A stretch of 26,521 nucleotides of DNA from a virus. Location: IMG/VR virus record IMGVR_UViG_3300025824_000003, positions 1 through 26,521 of that record; one strand, given 5' to 3'. Every line of letters begins with the position of its first letter. The first letter of the stretch is position 1. Positions 3,155 through 26,392 of this stretch are shown piece after piece. The notes under the pieces were generated by a model, which was not told the DNA's origin, ran no database searches, and saw nothing but the letters and a program-made list of their open reading frames with translations. The position numbers were made by a program, and so were the translations under genes.

Positions 3155-3922
3155 ATGGGAACGCATGAGCCGCAAGGCTGCCCGCCTGTCATCATCCTGT
3201 GCGCCAACACCGACGACATCGTGAGGATGTCCCGGGAACTCTGCGACTACCCGCCCGATGCGCTCTGGGACGCGATGGAGGGCCTGGACTGGATCGACGC
3301 GGCCGACGACCAGGGCATTCCCGGCGAGCCGGTCCTCGTGTGGACGGGAACCACCTACGCGGTGGCCCGCTACGAGACGGACGACGGCTGGTTCGAGATG
3401 GCAACGGGCTGCCCGGTCACGGTGCAGCACTGGTGGGCCCGAGACTTCCCTGAGCCCCCGGAGGACGAAGCCGACGAGCTGCGACCGGCACCGTCGCTCG
3501 TCGAGTGTCCATGGGCCGACATGCTGCCCACGCTGGAATCCCTCACCAATAGCTTCCTCGACGTGCTGCGCCTGATCTCGTCGGTGCAATGTGCCGACCG
3601 CCTCGCCACCCTGCGCTATGTCTGCCGGCCTCTCGGTCGGGACTCGGCCTATGACTGGGCGCGGCACAAGACCGCGTTGCCGGGCGCCCTCTGCGCCCTC
3701 GCCGCTTTGGCGCCACCCGGTCGCAACGCCAAGCAGGCCCGGGAACTGTCGCGCCGGATCCTCGTCACGCTCGGGATGCTCACGGAACACCCCGAAGATC
3801 CCGCCCTCTATGAGTTCACCTGTCCGCAATGCGGCGGGCCTGTGATGCTCGGGGAGCCGTGCCGGGTGTGCGCGGTCAACAACGCCGAGGACGATGCGAA
3901 CATGCGGGGGCAGGAAGGATGA
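3155..3922 (+). CDS. Hypothetical protein with C-terminal zinc ribbon
   Basis: Encodes 255 residues from the ATG at 3155 (AAGGA eight bases upstream); the frame is open further upstream but without a better start. It is acidic, with a Trp/Asp-rich N-terminal half (DALWDAMEGLDWIDAADDQG) and a helical middle. A C-terminal zinc ribbon is visible in FTCPQCGGPVML...EPCRVCAV: CxxC at about residues 228-231 and again at about 242-245. No enzymatic domain is recognised. Its stop overlaps the methyltransferase start (ATGA), so the two are translationally coupled, and it could be a partner of DNA modification. That link is inference from adjacency only. Confidence 0.65.
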   Translation: MGTHEPQGCPPVIILCANTDDIVRMSRELCDYPPDALWDAMEGLDWIDAADDQGIPGEPVLVWTGTTYAVARYETDDGWFEMATGCPVTVQHWWARDFPEPPEDEADELRPAPSLVECPWADMLPTLESLTNSFLDVLRLISSVQCADRLATLRYVCRPLGRDSAYDWARHKTALPGALCALAALAPPGRNAKQARELSRRILVTLGMLTEHPEDPALYEFTCPQCGGPVMLGEPCRVCAVNNAEDDANMRGQEG

Positions 3923-5039
3923 GCAGCCGCACGTTCCGCATGGTGGATCTGTTCGCCGGCGCCGGTGGCATCTCCGAGGGATTCCACCGCGCCTGTGAGG
4001 CCCGGGGCCTTCGCCTGGAGTTGACGGCTATCAACCACTGGCCGACGGCCGTCGAGACTCACGCGCTCAATCACCCGGCCGCACACCACTTCTGCCAGAG
4101 CGTGTTCGATGTGGATCCGCTCAAGGCGGTCCCGTCCGGCCGTCTCGATTGCCTGGCCGCGGCCCCGGAGTGCATCTTTCACTCACGGGCACGCGGGGGC
4201 GGTCCCTGCAACGAGCAGAGCCGCAACGGGGCGCGTGACGTGCTGCGCTGGGCCGAGGCCCTGGAAATCAGGATGATCCTGATTGAGAACGTGCCGGAGT
4301 TCCAGGAGTGGGGACCGCTCTACCAGCGCGGCCCGAAGACCGGGAAGCCCATCCCGAAGTTCCGGGGACTGTACTTCCGCCGGTTCCTCTGTGACCTGCG
4401 CAGCCTGGGCTACCGGCTCGACTACGCGGTCCTCAACTCGGCCAACTACGGCGCCCGCACCGCACGCCGCCGGTTCTTCCTGATGGCGCGCAAGGACGGC
4501 CGAGACCCGCGCTGGCCGTCACTCACACATGTGGAGATGGACCCGGATCGGTTCCAGGAGTCATGGCGCAGCGCCCGGGACGCTATCGACTGGAGTCTAC
4601 CGGGAACCTCGATCTTCGCCCGTCAGGCCGGCCGTATCCCCGGGAAAAAGCCGCTATGCCCGAACACCATCAAGCGGATCTGCTACGGGCTGGAACGCTT
4701 CAGCGGTCTGAAGCTCGATCCCTACCTTGTCATGCTCTACGGCCAGTCGATGGCCCGGGGCCTGGACCTTCCCCTTCCCACCATCACCAACGGTAACCAC
4801 CTGGCGCTCTGCACGCCGTTCTTCGCCATTCTCCGGGGCACGGGGACGGTGCGCAGTTGGATGTCCTCTACCGGATGCTTGAGCCGCACGAGCTGGCCAA
4901 GGCCATGGGCTTCGGGGATTCCTACCAGTTCGCCGGCACCAAGACAGCCGTCAAGAAACAGATCGGCAACGCGGTCGAGGTCTGCCAGAGCACGGCGCTC
5001 GCCTCCGCAATCATCGACGCCGTGATCGCCGCAGCATAG
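3919..5039 (+). CDS. DNA cytosine-5 methyltransferase, frameshifted near the 3' end
   Basis: Dcm/HhaI-class enzyme that would methylate cytosine C5 using S-adenosylmethionine. Visible motifs: motif I VDLFAGAGG (about 9-17); motif IV as AAPECIFHSRARGG with the catalytic Cys at about 85, in PEC context instead of the usual PC; motif VI ENVPEF (about 123-128); and motif VIII GARTARRRFFLMA (about 178-190). A target-recognition region and ITNGNHLAL...FFAILRG follow. The frame then fails: as read, it stops at about 5025 in nonsense. The true C-terminus (LDVLYRMLEPHELAKAMGF, then KTAVKKQIGNAV, motif X) lies in the -1 frame at 4857-5039. The switch falls around 4836-4856, near a GGGG run. Third-position GC supports the same switch. 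It may be a sequence error or a real inactivating mutation. Confidence 0.88.
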
Positions 5040-5693: not shown

Positions 5694-6067
5694 TTGACCC
5701 CGGAACACTCAGACCCAGCGAGGCTACCCGCAGGTGCAACCCCGGGCTCTTTGGTGGTGGTCCTGCCGTTCCCGCTGCCGACGTGGAACCGGGTCCTCGC
5801 CATGAGCCTGAGCCAGCGCATGGCCCTGAAGCGATTGACGCACCAGTTGTCATCACCGTCCATAGCTTCCGCCACAAGCTCGCCGACCCCGACGGGCTGT
5901 GCTGCAAGTGGGTCATCGACGCGCTTGTCGCTGGCGGAGTACTACGCGATGATCGGGCGGAGTTCGTCGCCGAGGTCCGTCACCGACAGACCAAAGTCCC
6001 CAAAACGGAAGCGGAGCGCACGCTCCTGATCCTGGAGGTACAGACATGCCCCGAAGAATCTATGTAG
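5694..6067 (+). CDS. RusA-like Holliday junction resolvase, split across two frames
   Basis: RusA-type enzymes cut Holliday junctions with metal-binding aspartates. The C-terminal part carries the hallmark: FRHKLADPDGLCCKWVIDAL followed by GVLRDDRAEFV, with the DxD-type pair and the DD pair, in the frame closing at 6067. The expected N-terminus (VVVLPFPLPTWNRVLAMSLS) is in another frame starting at TTG 5694, and it has strong third-position GC. The best codon signal therefore switches by -1 at about 5840-5855. The C-terminal frame is also open from an ATG at 5675, but that N-terminus is Pro/Gly/Glu-rich with poor third-position GC. The joined protein is shorter than E. coli RusA between the two motifs, so a small deletion may accompany the shift. 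No slippery heptamer is evident. Confidence 0.65.
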
Positions 6068-6573
6068 CATCGAGCTGGCGCAACGAGCGGCAACCGGATG
6101 TCGTCAAAGTGCTCCGGCTTGCCGAGCACCAGGTCTACGATTTCCGCAACCCCGGACTCGGGGACTCCGTCTTTCACTGGTCGGAGATCGACCCGAATTG
6201 GCAGGGGTGGGCTCGTCACCAATTCCGTGACGCCCTTCAGCACCCCACGGCAATCAACGGCTACGCGTCGGACTGGGCCGCGATGCAGTGGGCCGATACG
6301 TGCGTTCTGGTCATGCCGTGCGGCCGCTCAGCGCACATCGAGGCGGGCTATTTCGTCGGGGCCGGGAAGGAGCTGCACATCCTGCTGGCCGATGGCGAGC
6401 CGGAACTCATGTACAAGATGGCGACGGCGCTCCACACCGACACGGCGTCCCTGTTGACGGCGCTCTGGGGTGCGGACGACCGCTGTCCCTACTGCCCAAA
6501 CTGTGACGGCGGGCTCAACAGCGACGGGCTGTGCCCGGTCTGCGACTACCACGGGGTGGAGATCCCGACATGA
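6046..6573 (+). CDS. Nucleoside 2-deoxyribosyltransferase-like protein with zinc ribbon
   Basis: Encodes 175 residues, with GGAGG eight bases before the ATG, and overlaps the previous gene by 22 bases. Residues 1-115 match the nucleoside 2-deoxyribosyltransferase/nucleotide-hydrolase fold: IYVASSWRN at the first strand, AAMQWADTCVLVMPCGRSAH, then IEAGYFVGAGKELHIL, where the Glu (about 99) sits at the catalytic nucleophile position. The C-terminus has a zinc ribbon (CPYCPNC about 147-153, CPVC about 163-166). Family members cleave or transfer N-glycosidic bonds of nucleosides or nucleotides. In a phage this could recycle host nucleotides, remodel pools for modified bases, or remove signalling nucleotides. 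The zinc ribbon is an unusual addition. Confidence 0.75.
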   Translation: MPRRIYVASSWRNERQPDVVKVLRLAEHQVYDFRNPGLGDSVFHWSEIDPNWQGWARHQFRDALQHPTAINGYASDWAAMQWADTCVLVMPCGRSAHIEAGYFVGAGKELHILLADGEPELMYKMATALHTDTASLLTALWGADDRCPYCPNCDGGLNSDGLCPVCDYHGVEIPT

Positions 6574-7172: not shown

Positions 7173-7408
7173 GCACGAACTGTATGACCTGCCTCGTGGC
7201 GCCGCGGACCGGTCCCGACCTGCCCGACAAGCTCCTGCACATCCTACAGCACTCTCTCGGCCTCGACCGCTATGGGCGGGGCCGGCCGTATCGCAACCAC
7301 TACGTCCCTGGCGGGGACGACGTTCCCCTGTGTTGGTCCCTGGCCGAACTTGGGATGATGCAGGAACACCCGGAGAGCGCCCTTACCGACGGAGCCTACA
7401 GACGATGA
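7169..7408 (+). CDS. Small hypothetical phage protein
   Basis: A 79-residue protein coupled to the gene before it by an ATGA overlap. It contains HSLGLDRYGRGRPYRNHYVPGGDD, a Gly/Tyr/Arg-rich segment that I associate with a small protein common in tailed-phage early operons, though I cannot attach a function. There is an N-terminal CxxC (NCMTCL), a helical start (LPDKLLHILQHSLG) and a C-terminal helix (WSLAELGMMQEHPESAL). Confidence 0.6.
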   Translation: MSTNCMTCLVAPRTGPDLPDKLLHILQHSLGLDRYGRGRPYRNHYVPGGDDVPLCWSLAELGMMQEHPESALTDGAYRR

Positions 7409-8301: not shown

Positions 8302-8489
8302 CGAAACCGTACCGGCCAACCCCGAAGCGCTACGGGCGCATTGAGCGCACCTGTGTCCAGTGCGGTAAGCCTGTCCGGGCCTACCACTGGGAGTTCTCGC
8401 CGACGTGCGGCCCCTGCCGCCAGGCCTATGCCGATCCGCGCAGAAACCAAACCGACACGGGATCGACGCCAACCAATGCCCCCGCGTGA
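8298..8489 (+). CDS. Small zinc-ribbon protein
   Basis: A 63-residue basic protein with an ATGA overlap. CVQCGKPVRAYHWEFSPTCG carries one CxxC and leads into TCGPCRQAY with the second, so a single zinc ribbon spans about residues 19-40. The Ser/Thr/Pro-rich C-terminus overlaps the start of the replication-like gene at 8476. No family name can be assigned. Confidence 0.6.
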   Translation: MTKPYRPTPKRYGRIERTCVQCGKPVRAYHWEFSPTCGPCRQAYADPRRNQTDTGSTPTNAPA

Positions 8490-9210
8490 CAACAAGAAGT
8501 TCGGCCGCTTCGCGGTCTGTCGCAGCCTGCTCTACGACCCCCTGTGGCTGGCGGAGCGTTTCACGCGCGGCCAGGCCCTTGTGGACCTGATCGGGCTCGC
8601 GAACCATGGCCCGAAAGACGTGGAGGTCCGCGGCAACCTGGTGCACACCGAACGGGGCCAGGTGGCGGTCGGAGAACGCACGCTGGCGGAACGCTGGAAG
8701 TGGGGGCGTGGACGCGTTCGCCGCTTCCTGGTGTACCTGACAGTGAACGGCACCCTAGTACCACAGACGGGGAACGTAAAGACCGTGCTGACACTGTGTA
8801 ACTATAACGCGTATCAGTTCGGCAGTACCGCAGACAGTACCGCAGACGGTACCGCAGACAGTACCGCAGACGGTACCGCTTCTTTAGAGAACTTAGAGAA
8901 CAAGAAAAAGACTACTCCAACCGCGCCTGCGCCCACGTGTGAGGATGTTTCCCCCGGTCAGGGATCCCTCGGCTACCCGTCGCTCGACACCTACCACGAT
9001 TACGGGGTTTCCATCGGCTTGCTGTGGACGAAAGACCACGCGGAGAACGACTACCTGCGGGTGAGGGCGTTCGGGTGGACCGATGGTCACGGCAAGCCCA
9101 TCGCGGACTGGAGGGCATGGCTGTCCTGGCGCAAGAAATACATCCAGCAGGACCTCGCCCAGGTCCGGGCCGGCGAAGAGGTGGATTGGAACCGGGTAGG
9201 GAAGATCTGA
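8476..9210 (+). CDS. Replication initiator/organizer-like protein with internal repeats
   Basis: Encodes 244 residues from the ATG at 8476, overlapping the previous gene by 14 bases. The N-terminal 110 residues look like the winged-helix domain of phage replisome organizers: FAVCRSLLYDPLWLAERF, QALVDLIGLANH, VGERTLAERWKWGRGRVRRF and TVLTLCNYNAYQ. A linker of repeating GTADSTAD units, encoded by 12-bp DNA repeats, separates it from a C-terminal domain (WTKDHAENDYLRVRAFGWTD, PIADWRAWLSWRKKY) that resembles the tail region of such proteins. It would bind the origin and load the helicase. The DNA repeats plus the AT-rich stretch inside the gene mirror lambda O, whose gene contains the origin. Fold and role are inferred by pattern. 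Confidence 0.7.
   Translation: MPPRDNKKFGRFAVCRSLLYDPLWLAERFTRGQALVDLIGLANHGPKDVEVRGNLVHTERGQVAVGERTLAERWKWGRGRVRRFLVYLTVNGTLVPQTGNVKTVLTLCNYNAYQFGSTADSTADGTADSTADGTASLENLENKKKTTPTAPAPTCEDVSPGQGSLGYPSLDTYHDYGVSIGLLWTKDHAENDYLRVRAFGWTDGHGKPIADWRAWLSWRKKYIQQDLAQVRAGEEVDWNRVGKI
8824..8922 (+). repeat. 12-bp iterons followed by AT-rich tract: candidate replication origin
   Basis: Four full copies of rGTACCGCAGAC (r = A or G) plus a partial fifth lie head to tail at 8824-8879. They are followed at 8880-8922 by an AT-rich tract containing a tandem TTAGAGAAC repeat (8884-8901). This arrangement of iterons, AT-rich unwinding region and location inside a replication gene is that of the lambda-type origin. 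The repeats also encode a Ser/Thr/Ala/Asp linker, so pure coding slippage is the alternative. Confidence 0.5.
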
Positions 9211-10118
9211 TGGCAGCGACGACCACACAGCTTTGGACGCCCTTCGAACAGAAGTTCATCCGGGAGTGGAAAACGCGCTGGAGCGCGGACACGGATTGGA
9301 CGGGCCGGGACATGGCCCAGGGGACCAGCTCGCTGCTCTCGTGGCGGGAGTGGTTTGAGAAGGCACCCCTGGACCTCGACACGCTGCTGGGGGTGCTCGA
9401 TATCATGCGGTTGCTGTCGCGGCATCGTAACGACAAGCCGACGATTGCCGACGTGCAGGACGCCTACACGTACCTCGCCAGTGACTACGTGGATGCCACC
9501 AAGGTGGCTCAGACCGCGGTGCACATGGTGGAGGCGCTCGCACCGGGTGACTACCGGCCGTCGTGGTCGGCCGTTGTGATGCAGTACAAACGGGCCGTCT
9601 CGCTCCGCCCTCCGCCCCGGGACGGTCTCTGTGGAGCGTGCTGGGGTAGCGGCCTCATCTGGGTGGCGGTCGTCAAGCGCAAGAACCGATGGTATTCGCT
9701 CGAACCGACCGAGGGGCCACGGCCGGTCCAGGCCCAGCCGGGTGCCACGTACTGCCCCTGCACACAGGGCCGGTACCTGGCGGCCAAGATTGAGGGCCAG
9801 GAGGTCGCGGCCACGCACGCCTTCAGCCGGGCCATGGCGCAGCGCTTCACCGACCACCGTCAACTGTGCGAGTTCTGCGCGGCGTGCTGTGAGCTGGCCG
9901 ACGCGAACGTGAGCGAGGCCTCGGCCCAACTGGCGCACACGGTCGATCACCACAGTTTCCGCGAGTGGGCAACGGGAGTTGCCAGCCAAACGCCCGAGCC
10001 GGACCACAGGCTACACCGGGACGACGTGGCCCCGGGGCCTGACCCGGATGACATGGACTGGATTGGACCACAACCAGAAGGAGAGGACGATGACCCAGCA
10101 GACGGCACAGGCGGTTGA
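9210..10118 (+). CDS. Hypothetical replication-region protein with Cys clusters
   Basis: Encodes 302 residues; the ATG overlaps the preceding stop (TGATG). The N-terminal half is helical (FEQKFIREWKTRWS; WREWFEKAPLDLDTLLGVLD). The middle holds CGACWGSG, like one unit of a DnaJ-type zinc repeat, and CPCTQGRY. A CEFCAACC cluster follows at about 218-225, and the tail is acidic (GPQPEGEDDDPADGTGG). The position directly after the initiator-like gene suggests a helicase loader or other replisome accessory protein, but no Walker motif is visible, so it is not itself a helicase. The family is not recognised. Confidence 0.6.
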   Translation: MAATTTQLWTPFEQKFIREWKTRWSADTDWTGRDMAQGTSSLLSWREWFEKAPLDLDTLLGVLDIMRLLSRHRNDKPTIADVQDAYTYLASDYVDATKVAQTAVHMVEALAPGDYRPSWSAVVMQYKRAVSLRPPPRDGLCGACWGSGLIWVAVVKRKNRWYSLEPTEGPRPVQAQPGATYCPCTQGRYLAAKIEGQEVAATHAFSRAMAQRFTDHRQLCEFCAACCELADANVSEASAQLAHTVDHHSFREWATGVASQTPEPDHRLHRDDVAPGPDPDDMDWIGPQPEGEDDDPADGTGG

Positions 10119-11623: not shown

Positions 11624-11635
11624 CAAGTTATGTGC
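11556..11635. repeat. AT-rich island with inverted and direct repeats
   Basis: GCACATAcCaTGC (11556-11568) is repeated inverted at 11623-11635 with two mismatches out of 13. Between them are two TGCCAATA copies, two TGCAAAA copies (11584-11590, 11612-11618) and a small hairpin TGTAA-CATTT-TTACA (11594-11608). This is the most AT-rich stretch of the window. It could be an operator, a secondary origin, or the scar of an insertion next to the truncated methyltransferase. Confidence 0.5.
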
Positions 11636-12076
11636 CAACTAGCGGACGTTCTGGAGGGCCTCCGGGCCCTTCCGGCGGCGTCCGTGCATTGTGTGGTGAC
11701 GAGTCCGCCGTATTGGTCGCTGCGTGACTACCAGCTCGAACCGTCCGAGTGGCCGGCCGTGACCTATGCCCCCATGCCCGGGCTCCCGGACGTGACGGTA
11801 CCGCCGATGGCCAGTCAACTGGGCCTGGAGCCTGATCCGTGGTCGTTCGTCGGTCACCTGGTCGCGGTCTTCCGGGAGGTCCGGCGCGTCCTCCGGCCGG
11901 ACGCTACGGTCTGGCTCAACATGGGGGACTGCTACACGTCCGGGGGTCGCGGCGGCGCCAACGGGGATAAGGGCCCGCATACCGGCCTGGCCAGGGGCCA
12001 GGAGGCGAGCAGAGCCGCCCACCACGCCATGGCGAGCTGGCGCCGGGACAAGGCCGCTGTCGGGGACAACACATGA
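11630..12076 (+). pseudogene. Truncated site-specific N4/N6 DNA methyltransferase
   Basis: 148 residues corresponding to the N-terminal half of a beta-class amino-methyltransferase. ADVLEGLRALPAASVHCVV precedes the catalytic motif IV TSPPYWSLRDY; then come the target-specific region and FREVRRVLRPDATVWLNMGD. Intact relatives run to roughly 250-400 residues and contain the FxGSGT S-adenosylmethionine motif near the C-terminus, which is absent here. The frame ends in unrelated residues and its TGA overlaps the next start (ATGA), as if a deletion fused it to a downstream gene border. The ATG lacks a clear ribosome binding site and lies in the AT-rich island. Without the cofactor site it should be inactive, unless the other half is supplied elsewhere. 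Confidence 0.75.
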
Positions 12077-16542: not shown

Positions 16543-17631
16543 ATGACGCAGAAATCGCTGAACCGCAGCCTCGTCGGAGCCAAACTGGCCAAGGAGGACG
16601 AGTTCTACACCCAACTGTCCGACATCGAGCGCGAGCTCAAGCACTACAAGAAGCACTTCAAGGGCAAGACGGTCTACCTCAACTGCGACGACCCCCGCGT
16701 GAGCAACTTCTTCCACTACTTCTCCTACAACTTCGAGAAGTTGGGCCTGAAGAAGCTCATCGCCGCCTGCTACAAGAACCAAGAGATGGACTTGTTCAGT
16801 CAGAACGACTCCGAAGAAGCCATTTGCCTTGTCTACGAGGGCGACGAGGACGGCAACATGGTCCCCGACCCGGATGAGATTGGCATCAAGCCGCTCAAGG
16901 GTGACGGTGACTTCCGTAGCGCCGAGAGCATCGAGCTGCTCAAGGAAGCCGACATCGTTGTTACCAACCCGCCCTTCTCGCTCTTCCGTGAGTACGTGGC
17001 CCAGTTGATGGAGTACCGCAAGAAGTTCCTCATTGTCGGCAACCAGAACGCCATCAGTTACAAGGAGGTCTTCGCGCTCATCAAGGCCAACAAAGTATGG
17101 CTCGGCGTAAACAATGGGAACATGTGCTTCAAGGTCCCAGACTACTACGAGCCCCGTACCACCCGCTTCTGGGTGGACGAGCATGGGCAGAAGTGGCGAA
17201 GCCTTGGCAATGCGGGGTGGTTCACCAACTTGGACTTTGCCAAGCGCCACGAGGATCTGATCCTCTACAGGACCTACGACCCCGAGCTGTACCCCGACTA
17301 TGACAACTACGACGCCATCGAGGTCGCCAAAGTCGTGGACATACCCATGGACTTCGACGGCGTCATGGGCGTGCCACTCACCTTCCTCGACAAGTACAAT
17401 CCAGACCAGTTTGAGATTCTGGGGCTAAGCGGGTCTAGCTACCCCACGACGAAGAACTACGGGAAGAAGGAGAGAGTCGTGGATGGCGCCCGCAAGAAGT
17501 CCAACACTGGAACCCTTGGCTGTGTCGTCAGGACGGCCTCCTTCGGCGCGGGGACTCACTTCGATGTTGGCTACCCCGTTAAGGGCATCTACAGGCGGTT
17601 GTTCATCCGTCGTAGGGAGAAAACCTCATGA
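16543..17631 (+). CDS. EcoRI-type adenine-specific DNA methyltransferase
   Basis: Encodes 362 residues of the EcoRI_methylase family. Features: the N-terminal DEFYTQLSDIERELKHYK region; YLNCDDPRVSNFFHYFSYNF, which carries the S-adenosylmethionine-site region; ADIVVTNPPFSLF with the catalytic NPPF tetrapeptide (about 142-145); and a complete C-terminus ending in GYPVKGIYRRLFIRR. It methylates adenine N6 in a specific sequence, which cannot be read from the protein. GGAGA lies seven bases upstream of the ATG. It overlaps the DUF262-HNH gene by four bases (ATGA), the usual pairing of a protective methylase with a nuclease. Since the nuclease is broken, this is now an orphan methyltransferase. 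Its Lys/Asp-rich composition differs from the neighbouring phage genes, which suggests transfer. Confidence 0.92.
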   Translation: MTQKSLNRSLVGAKLAKEDEFYTQLSDIERELKHYKKHFKGKTVYLNCDDPRVSNFFHYFSYNFEKLGLKKLIAACYKNQEMDLFSQNDSEEAICLVYEGDEDGNMVPDPDEIGIKPLKGDGDFRSAESIELLKEADIVVTNPPFSLFREYVAQLMEYRKKFLIVGNQNAISYKEVFALIKANKVWLGVNNGNMCFKVPDYYEPRTTRFWVDEHGQKWRSLGNAGWFTNLDFAKRHEDLILYRTYDPELYPDYDNYDAIEVAKVVDIPMDFDGVMGVPLTFLDKYNPDQFEILGLSGSSYPTTKNYGKKERVVDGARKKSNTGTLGCVVRTASFGAGTHFDVGYPVKGIYRRLFIRRREKTS

Positions 17632-25090: not shown

Positions 25091-25198
25091 ATGGCCTATC
25101 ACCCGAACGGCAAGCGGCCCAAGAGTACCGGATCCAGTACCGCAGAGACGGGCCGCGACAAGCTCATCAAGGCACAACTGTACGGAGGCGTGAAGTAA
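25091..25198 (+). CDS. Small basic protein (35 residues)
   Basis: The ATG at 25091 lies six bases after the previous stop, and the frame ends at TAA 25196-25198. It is followed immediately by the next ATG, which overlaps no base but is adjacent (TAAATG). The product MAYHPNGKRPKSTGSSTAET plus GRDKLIKAQLYGGVK is basic and hydrophilic, with a short C-terminal helix. The upstream AAGAGA is a modest ribosome binding site. The tight packing and good third-position GC support it as a real small gene, probably a minor virion or assembly factor. Confidence 0.55.
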   Translation: MAYHPNGKRPKSTGSSTAETGRDKLIKAQLYGGVK

Positions 25199-25600: not shown

Positions 25601-26392
25601 ATGGCCGGACTCGTCCTCCCGATGCCGGGACAGATCATCATGGTTCCGAAGGTGGCAACGCCTTCGGATACTTGGCGTACCTGCCCCAATGATCCGCGCT
25701 ACGAGTACCAGATCCGGCGCCGGGACCTCGCGACGACCATTGACGCCTACGTGGGACTCCTGACGCATCTCGACGGCGTGGACGCGGCGACCGAGGCCGA
25801 GGACGTGAGCGCGAACGCGCACACCATCACGTTCAACGGATCCGCGGCCATCGAGGACAGCGACGGGAAGTTCGCGCAGTGCTGCGTGTTCCCGGGCAAC
25901 GGGAGCTACCTCCAGGTTGCCGATCACGCGAGTCTCGATTCCGGCACCGGGCCGTTCACGATTGAGTTCTGGGGCAAGGTCGCGACCACCTGGCCCAATA
26001 TGCCCGGCGCGTTGAGCCACGGCGGATCGAGCGCCATCTCGGACGCAGACGGCTGGCGCATCAACATCAACACCGGGCACTTCGACTTCCAGTTCCGACA
26101 CGACGGCGAGGGCAATGTTACCTCGACGCCCACGCTCCCCACCGGGGCATGGGTGCACTTCGCGTTCACCAGGGACAGCAGTAGCGATTGCAGGCTGTTC
26201 ATCAACGGCACCCAGGTCGGATCTACCACCAACTGCACAAAGAGCGCCGACTCTTCCAGCCCGTTCCGCGTCAATTCATCCAACGACGCCGGCTACTGGG
26301 GCGGGGCATGGAGCATCGACGAGCTCAAGGTATCGGACGGGATCGCCCGGTACGTGGCCAATTTCACCCCACGCGCCAAGGCGTGGTCCTGA
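25601..26392 (+). CDS. LamG/concanavalin-like virion protein
   Basis: Encodes 263 residues from the ATG at 25601 (GAGGTG seven bases upstream); a GTG at 25595 is an alternative start. After a short N-terminus, residues about 50-260 show a laminin-G-like (LamG_3) fold: YVGLLTHLDGVDAATEAEDV, FAQCCVFPGNGSYLQVADHA, GPFTIEFWGKVATTWPN, TGAWVHFAFTRDSSSDCRLF, INGTQVGSTT and GGAWSIDELKVSDGIARYVA. These domains bind carbohydrates and occur in phage tail-associated or head-surface proteins. It may bind host surface glycans or decorate the virion. Confidence 0.75.
   Translation: MAGLVLPMPGQIIMVPKVATPSDTWRTCPNDPRYEYQIRRRDLATTIDAYVGLLTHLDGVDAATEAEDVSANAHTITFNGSAAIEDSDGKFAQCCVFPGNGSYLQVADHASLDSGTGPFTIEFWGKVATTWPNMPGALSHGGSSAISDADGWRININTGHFDFQFRHDGEGNVTSTPTLPTGAWVHFAFTRDSSSDCRLFINGTQVGSTTNCTKSADSSSPFRVNSSNDAGYWGGAWSIDELKVSDGIARYVANFTPRAKAWS

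Follow-up and report, generated by a model that had tools for sequence, protein, structure and literature searches.

A tandem array of 12-bp iterons lying inside the gene of a phage replisome organiser very probably serves as the replication origin of this uncultured phage, to judge by the sequences compared here, and the organiser itself is presumed to bind it (Table 1). The window, which is the whole stretch of DNA that was analysed, is a virus record of 26,521 bases and represents a 26.5-kb fragment. Reading the array as an origin follows from repetition beyond the protein's need, from the conserved position of the repeats, from their independence of the reading frame in relatives, and from covariation between recognition helix and iteron. 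The likely origin located in this way has good precedent, and homology to Bacillus phage SPP1 replaces the analogy to phage lambda with which the original prediction had described it.

Table 1. Positions of the putative origin and of the protein segments encoded around it
Feature	Position in window	Strand	Basis
Replisome-organiser gene (244 aa)	8476..9210	+	SPP1 G38P / DnaD-like family: phrog_2514, tblastn to SPP1 gene 38
Winged-helix DNA-binding domain, residues 10-114, with family motif NYxxYQ at its end	8503..8817	+	AlphaFold, CRP-type structural matches, alignment
Recognition helix, residues 78-90	8707..8745	+	AlphaFold model; residues 78 and 79 are the top iteron-covarying columns
Outlying iteron-like copy AGTACCACAGACGG	8757..8770	+	Wing-coding sequence; reading frame differs from that of the array
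Disordered linker, residues 115-165, encoded by array and AT tract	8818..8970	+	AlphaFold
Iteron array, 4.8 x 12 bp (GTACCGCAGACR)	8823..8879	+	Tandem Repeats Finder; codon-shuffle test
Short AT-rich tract with TTAGAGAAC x2 at 8884-8901	8880..8916	+	Candidate DNA-unwinding element
Helical C-terminal domain, residues 170-231, presumed partner-binding	8983..9168	+	AlphaFold; weak C-terminal similarity in relatives

The repeat array and the protein encoded around it

Tandem Repeats Finder gave the array a score of 100, the top of its 17 rows in the window, with units starting at 8825, 8837, 8849 and 8861 and a 7-nt start at 8873, so that codons 117-135 of the 244-codon gene are occupied. We compared this repetition with 4,000 synonymous-codon shuffles inside the gene, a null that holds the protein and its codon pool constant, and obtained a self-repeat score of 36 for the 75 nt that immediately follow the winged-helix domain (shuffles: mean 12.8, maximum 29; p = 0.00025). 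Repetition across the array goes beyond the protein's requirement, and the tandem 12-bp repeats that had been noticed in mid-gene are confirmed. In a sliding repeat test along the gene (100 shuffles per window, p < 0.03), flags were confined to windows overlapping the array. The array makes use of AGT, GCA and GGT, which account for 8% of Ser, 12% of Ala and 11% of Gly codons, respectively, and are rare in this phage of 65% GC.

The AT-rich tract directly after the array, also part of the original prediction, is real but short and modest. Its tandem repeat is present, with a period of 9 in Tandem Repeats Finder, and AT content reaches 65% over the 20 nt at 8878-8897, but then falls to 44% at 8898-8947, with a gene mean of 37%. 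The outlying iteron-like copy in the wing-coding sequence had gone unmentioned. With the protein fixed, this copy by itself does not reach significance (p = 0.14), and we rejected it as stand-alone evidence; its zero mismatches carry no independent weight, since the pattern had been widened (R at one position) to admit it. Cumulative GC skew, which had been suggested as a check, reached its minimum within the first 14 kb at 7308 and its overall minimum at 26290, near the fragment end. The 8.8-kb region is not singled out, the record is a fragment, and we discarded GC skew as an indicator of origin position.

Sequence comparisons place the gene product among the SPP1 G38P / 'DnaD-like' replisome organisers. 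Residues 15-144 match phrog_2514 ('DnaD-like helicase loader') at E = 7.2e-13, tblastn aligns the protein with SPP1 gene 38 at E = 2e-5, and the SPP1 gene 38 product itself matches phrog_2514 at E = 1.8e-33. The term 'DnaD-like' is the PHROG name only and the PHROG match is limited to those N-terminal residues; a Pfam search returned no family at or above cut-off for the protein, a DnaD-type C-terminal domain included. An AlphaFold model computed with 60 relatives comprises a confident winged-helix domain (block-mean pLDDT 88-98, residues 11-110) with wing strands at residues 94-98 and 103-107, a linker of low confidence (46-61, residues 121-170) and a helical C-terminal domain of moderate confidence (77-88, residues 171-230). 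By family alignment and PHROG match, the N-terminal winged helix with its terminal NYxxYQ is homologous to phrog_2514 members. A search of 170 family members showed weak similarity of the C-terminal domain to the C-termini of 4 of them (E = 1e-5 to 3e-4). Structural comparison with VIA-align matched the model to CRP-type winged helices (Z up to 8.7; top row spanning residues 20-109), a fold that is common. Foldseek found nothing among solved structures at E ≤ 0.001, and against viral models it gave 31 matches at this threshold, of which 8 carry the name 'Replisome organizer'. A scan of viral contigs with the single protein yielded 10 pattern matches and 0 confirmed relatives.

Comparison with known phage origins

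An origin inside the initiator gene is already known in the SPP1 G38P family, to which the query adds a member. SPP1 gp38 is described as binding direct repeats within gene 38 at oriL, with in vitro replication published (PMC6316719), and a 350-bp fragment at 35801-36151 is reported to serve as oriL (PMC5615212). We located the gene-38 repeat zone at 35911-35985 of the 44,010-base SPP1 record, within that fragment. The two systems share a homologous winged-helix N-terminus and have direct repeats with an AT-rich tract, in the query a short candidate unwinding element, at the same in-gene place, and they differ in repeat period (11 bp in SPP1, 12 bp in the query), in iteron sequence and in the C-terminal domain, which is Phg_2220_C in SPP1 and without a Pfam match in the query. 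A further SPP1 origin, oriR, is described some 13 kb away from oriL (PMC6316719). The G38P-like ORF20 of Staphylococcus aureus phage 80alpha, compared here through its paper only, is likewise related to SPP1 G38P, and its gene reportedly includes the origin in cis: its deletion was described as not complementable in trans, and the authors infer an ori embedded in ORF20, as in SPP1 and the 'unrelated' lambda O (PMC5499656). For a Francisella phage, an origin of the in-gene type has been predicted inside a Phg_2220_C gene (PMC7924643).

From SPP1 we infer how binding, melting and helicase loading may proceed in the query phage. Several protein molecules would bind the 12-bp iterons through their N-terminal winged helices, possibly together with copies in the wing-coding sequence; the wrapped nucleoprotein complex would melt the adjoining AT-rich tract; and the C-terminal domain would bring in helicase loader and helicase, upon which theta replication could start. 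SPP1 has G39P and G40P downstream, whereas counterparts were not recognised in the query fragment: none of the 20 window ORFs scanned was recognised as a DnaB-type helicase or as another loader. The gene directly downstream, at 9210-10118 (+), has no informative family match and by position could be a helicase loader.

A kinship with lambda O, as the description 'lambda-O-like' had implied, is not supported by profile searches. The query protein has no match to Phage_rep_O (PF04492), the N-terminal domain of lambda O, up to E = 1 (lambda O control: 5.7e-36), and hhalign of the query profile with lambda O, entered as a single sequence, returned a probability of 0.2%. A lone model resembling the lambda GpO N-terminus ranks 29th among the Foldseek matches to viral models; lambda O does not appear by name among the structural matches listed for solved structures or by VIA-align, which in itself excludes nothing. 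Lambda and query share an analogous layout, in which the coding sequence of an N-terminal DNA-binding domain is followed by iterons within the initiator gene, and the lambda ori iterons are likewise adjoined by an AT-rich region; the lambda iterons measure 18 bp and are annotated as four, against 12 bp in the query. The resemblance is one of layout and, presumably, of mechanism, and iterons within a gene are insufficient for membership of the lambda O family. Lambda O nevertheless matches positions 88-269 of phrog_2514 (E = 2.8e-37), and the C-termini of the relatives Vibrio F89 and Enterococcus EH-TP1 resemble that of lambda O by eye; given this match and such lambda O-like C-termini, domains seem to be shuffled between both families, and the SPP1-type and lambda O families may have exchanged initiator halves. 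At the loci L003:1495-2463 and L011:1429-2214, an SPP1-type winged helix seems to be combined with a C-terminal domain of this lambda O-like appearance.

An autoregulatory operator, through which the protein represses its own transcription or blocks elongation while the origin lies elsewhere, would be another function for the repeats and strikes us as improbable. The winged-helix fold does lie near CRP/NtcA-type regulators, although this fold is common, and a second iteron-like pair at 25125-25148 (+), 16 kb from the array and in a tiny ORF, suggests that sites are perhaps not at one place only. The units of this pair are 12 bp apart with 9/12 and 11/12 matches, and such a pair arose in 2 of 300 one-strand Markov simulations at a threshold chosen after the pair had been seen. 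Operators are usually found at promoters rather than in mid-gene, and AT content at 80-130 nt after the NYxxYQ motif exceeds that of the gene itself in 87% of 171 family members. Against an operator there is also the in-gene array of the SPP1 homologue, which lies within the mapped origin, and the 80alpha gene, which appears to act in cis (PMC5499656).

Repeats and recognition helices across the family

We surveyed whether iterons after the winged-helix domain are a general property of the family in 364 loci that had been collected by protein similarity, chiefly of the DNA-binding domain and partly with subgroup alignments (A2-A5), never by repeats, with some contigs represented twice. The winged-helix domain was located in 366 of 366 sources (the 364 loci, the window and the window's own copy, L001). 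The main set used 360 of these, leaving out L001, L179, L274, L323, L250 and L121, and comprised 171 members after removal of near-duplicates, query included; an earlier set of 202 rows, without L001, L121, L125 and L179, was dereplicated to 114. In the 75 nt immediately after NYxxYQ, repeats exceed synonymous shuffles (p < 0.05) in 144 of the 171 non-redundant members, query included, and 27 members have no significant repeats in this zone. Equal-sized control zones gave 7 of 170 within the domain and 6 of 164 in the C-terminal part, about the chance level. As positive controls, the test recovered the repeats of SPP1 as well as the iterons annotated in lambda ori (p = 0.002 each, 1,000 shuffles); a coarse scan (100 shuffles, p < 0.03) also returned weak off-array windows, at starts 150 and 165 of SPP1 gene 38 and at start 450 of lambda O.

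Periods among the 144 arrays are 11 bp (71 arrays), 12 bp (34), 23 bp (18) and 22 bp (8), with 24 bp (4), 33 bp (4), 36 bp (3) and 35 bp (2) more rarely, and some 23-bp arrays alternate visibly between 11 and 12. The in-frame 12-bp unit of the query is a minority form, and an array of this kind is frame-locked, such that single iterons could be gained or lost without breaking the gene. In 99 of the 144 arrays the period is not divisible by three, and successive units consequently fall in different reading frames; an 11-bp unit shifts frame every time, which points to selection on the DNA with the peptide following. One DNA word is accordingly translated differently among linkers, for example as GTAD, VQQT or DSRR. 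The prevalence of such periods, together with a helix-iteron link that is independent of the reading frame (described below), supports both the proposal that iterons and AT tract form a putative origin inside the initiator gene and the idea that the Ser/Thr/Ala/Asp linker is a by-product of the iterons: the linker peptide is largely whatever the iterons spell, with little sequence of its own to keep.

Copies of the iteron word are often found upstream of the array as well, in codons between the recognition helix and the wing. A comparison of upstream and downstream sequence with no preset motif detected a significant upstream match in 32 of 114 genes, against 5.7 expected. Among the 121 rows with Arg at residue 78, the core word occurs 113 times at -90 to -12, where shuffles give 66.8. 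It peaks at -58 (53 against 30.7) and -70 (27 against 21.8), and is not in excess farther upstream (16 against 15.0). The outlying copy of the query lies at -61 to -48, a place where core words also occur in the Arg-78 group.

Family-wide, the iteron sites seem, from these alignments, to change together with the part of the protein that reads them. In the 144 genes, iteron similarity correlates with similarity at six recognition-helix positions with a partial r of 0.31 that controls for the rest of the domain, wing excluded (0 of 2,000 permutations); none of 500 random six-column control sets was as high, the maximum being 0.18. A first set of 84 gave a partial r of 0.27 (0 of 2,000 permutations, 0 of 300 control sets). 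Residues 78 and 79 are the top single columns; residue 96 also ranks high, which may be circular because the wing codons carry iteron copies. A covarying initiator DNA-binding domain and iterons have also been described for PLE RepA_N of a Vibrio cholerae satellite, which shares this feature with the query's family and belongs to a different protein family, with a noncoding origin and semi-palindromic iterons of about 30 bp (PMC8263062).

Within the Arg-78 group the covariation can be followed for one residue and one base, residue 79 and iteron base 9. We read base 9 through an 8-position core that ignores base 9 itself, in tables covering 66 of 70 Arg-78 rows in the first set and 114 of 121 in the second (rows with two or more sites). 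Gly-79 goes with C in 49 of 56 rows (5 T, 2 A) and Asp-79 with C in 4 of 4, whereas A accompanies Ser-79 in 8 of 8 rows and Thr-79 in 8 of 9 (1 T). Asn-79 is split (12 C, 12 A, 1 T), Lys-79 has 2 A and 2 G, and Phe, His, Pro, Arg and Ala together make up 8 rows. The query, with Gly-79 and the iteron ACCGCAGAC[G/A]G, fits this pattern.

Core-word frequency by itself was dropped as evidence beyond the peptide: with 7 of 8 positions required, 114 of 121 rows have two or more sites against 107.9 expected in codon-shuffled linkers, which are nearly as rich, and the word is rare in control zones (4 of 121 and 15 of 115). For this reason we tabulated base 9 frame by frame, counting sites, which are not independent events. 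Frame by frame, base 9 is C or T at 143 of 152, 33 of 38 and 64 of 69 sites of rows with Gly or Asp at residue 79, and A or G at 16 of 22, 18 of 20 and 30 of 37 sites of rows with Ser or Thr. The link between residue 79 and base 9 is independent of the reading frame, as a link at the DNA level requires.

Among pairs whose rest-of-domain difference is at most 35%, 40% or 45%, the base class differs in 29 of 36, 186 of 217 and 452 of 551 pairs when the residue-79 class differs, and in 19 of 126, 38 of 297 and 97 of 595 when it is the same. For 23 rows the nearest neighbour belongs to the opposite helix class, and in 16 of these base 9 agrees with the class of the helix. Tree-based independent pairs were too few in either set, with 6 in the first (of which, on average, 3.9 changed as expected and 0.0 the opposite way; p = 0.125) and 5 in the second (2.7 and 0.0; p = 0.25), and strict coding was likewise underpowered (5 pairs, p = 0.125; 3 pairs, p = 0.5).

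These results bear on the idea that the array arose by neutral tandem expansion, through slippage in a disordered linker without DNA function, which we consider very unlikely. The linker is disordered in the model, a 12-bp unit preserves the frame and could spread in this way, and array length does vary among eight closely similar loci (L129, L130, L133, L134, L138, L139, L141 and L143), where L139 has an array with 33 bp more and L130 one with 66 bp more, equivalent to three or six 11-bp units with the frame kept; one pair tabulated at 33 bp differs by 66 bp in the sequences themselves. Slippage tolerated by a linker does not, however, fit the predominance of periods not divisible by three, 11 bp foremost among them, nor repeats that track the recognition helix in all three frames, nor control zones without excess.

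Mantel tests left a correlation of DNA with helix given linker peptide (0.16; 0 of 1,000 permutations) and one of linker peptide with helix given DNA (0.13; 0 of 1,000), and since both remain, these tests alone cannot decide whether DNA or peptide is primary. That the repeats are kept for the protein, as a Ser/Thr/Asp-rich spacer such as a phosphorylated or flexible tether, is scarcely credible even with this residual peptide correlation and with GTAD, STAD or GTTD motifs common to several 12-bp linkers, because peptide composition does not follow the helix (-0.02; 650 of 1,000 permutations), 11-bp relatives read one DNA word as different peptides, repetition exceeds synonymous shuffles that fix the protein, and the residue-79/base-9 link is present in each frame.

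Protein-site pairs and other genes of the fragment

With the array read as an origin, the layout found in 144 of 171 members turns an annotation of 'DnaD-like helicase loader' or 'hypothetical protein' into an origin locator. On balance we also think it likely that this phage initiator family, a very large one, is self-documenting, each gene consisting of a DNA-binding domain and, as its linker, the sites of that domain, so that protein-site pairs would yield a readable recognition code. As an example predicted from the alignments, Gly or Asp at residue 79 with C, and Ser or Thr with A, can be read out at iteron base 9. The family thereby offers data for studying the DNA specificity of winged helices, with each target encoded next to its reader, and this arrangement makes the code testable by simple binding assays. 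If the reading is true, many natural pairs of protein and site can be obtained from sequence alone, and the linker peptide is one DNA word translated in several frames. To a specialist, the regularity across the family and the covariation of helix and iteron might be new; in the literature covered, no paper among the matches listed described family-wide helix/iteron covariation in the SPP1 G38P/DnaD-like family.

Elsewhere in the window, a gene at 16543-17628 (+) encodes an adenine methyltransferase of the EcoRI type (PF13651, E = 3.4e-138). GC content around this gene is lower, about 0.56-0.60, as if it had been acquired recently. Further matches are a C5-cytosine methyltransferase at 3829-5022 (+; PF00145, E = 2e-15) and a short N6/N4 methyltransferase of 148 aa at 11630-12073 (+; PF01555, E = 6e-7), which may be incomplete or split. 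The product of 6046-6570 (+) is nucleoside deoxyribosyltransferase-like (phrog_12607, E = 1e-52), which hints at nucleotide or modified-base metabolism.
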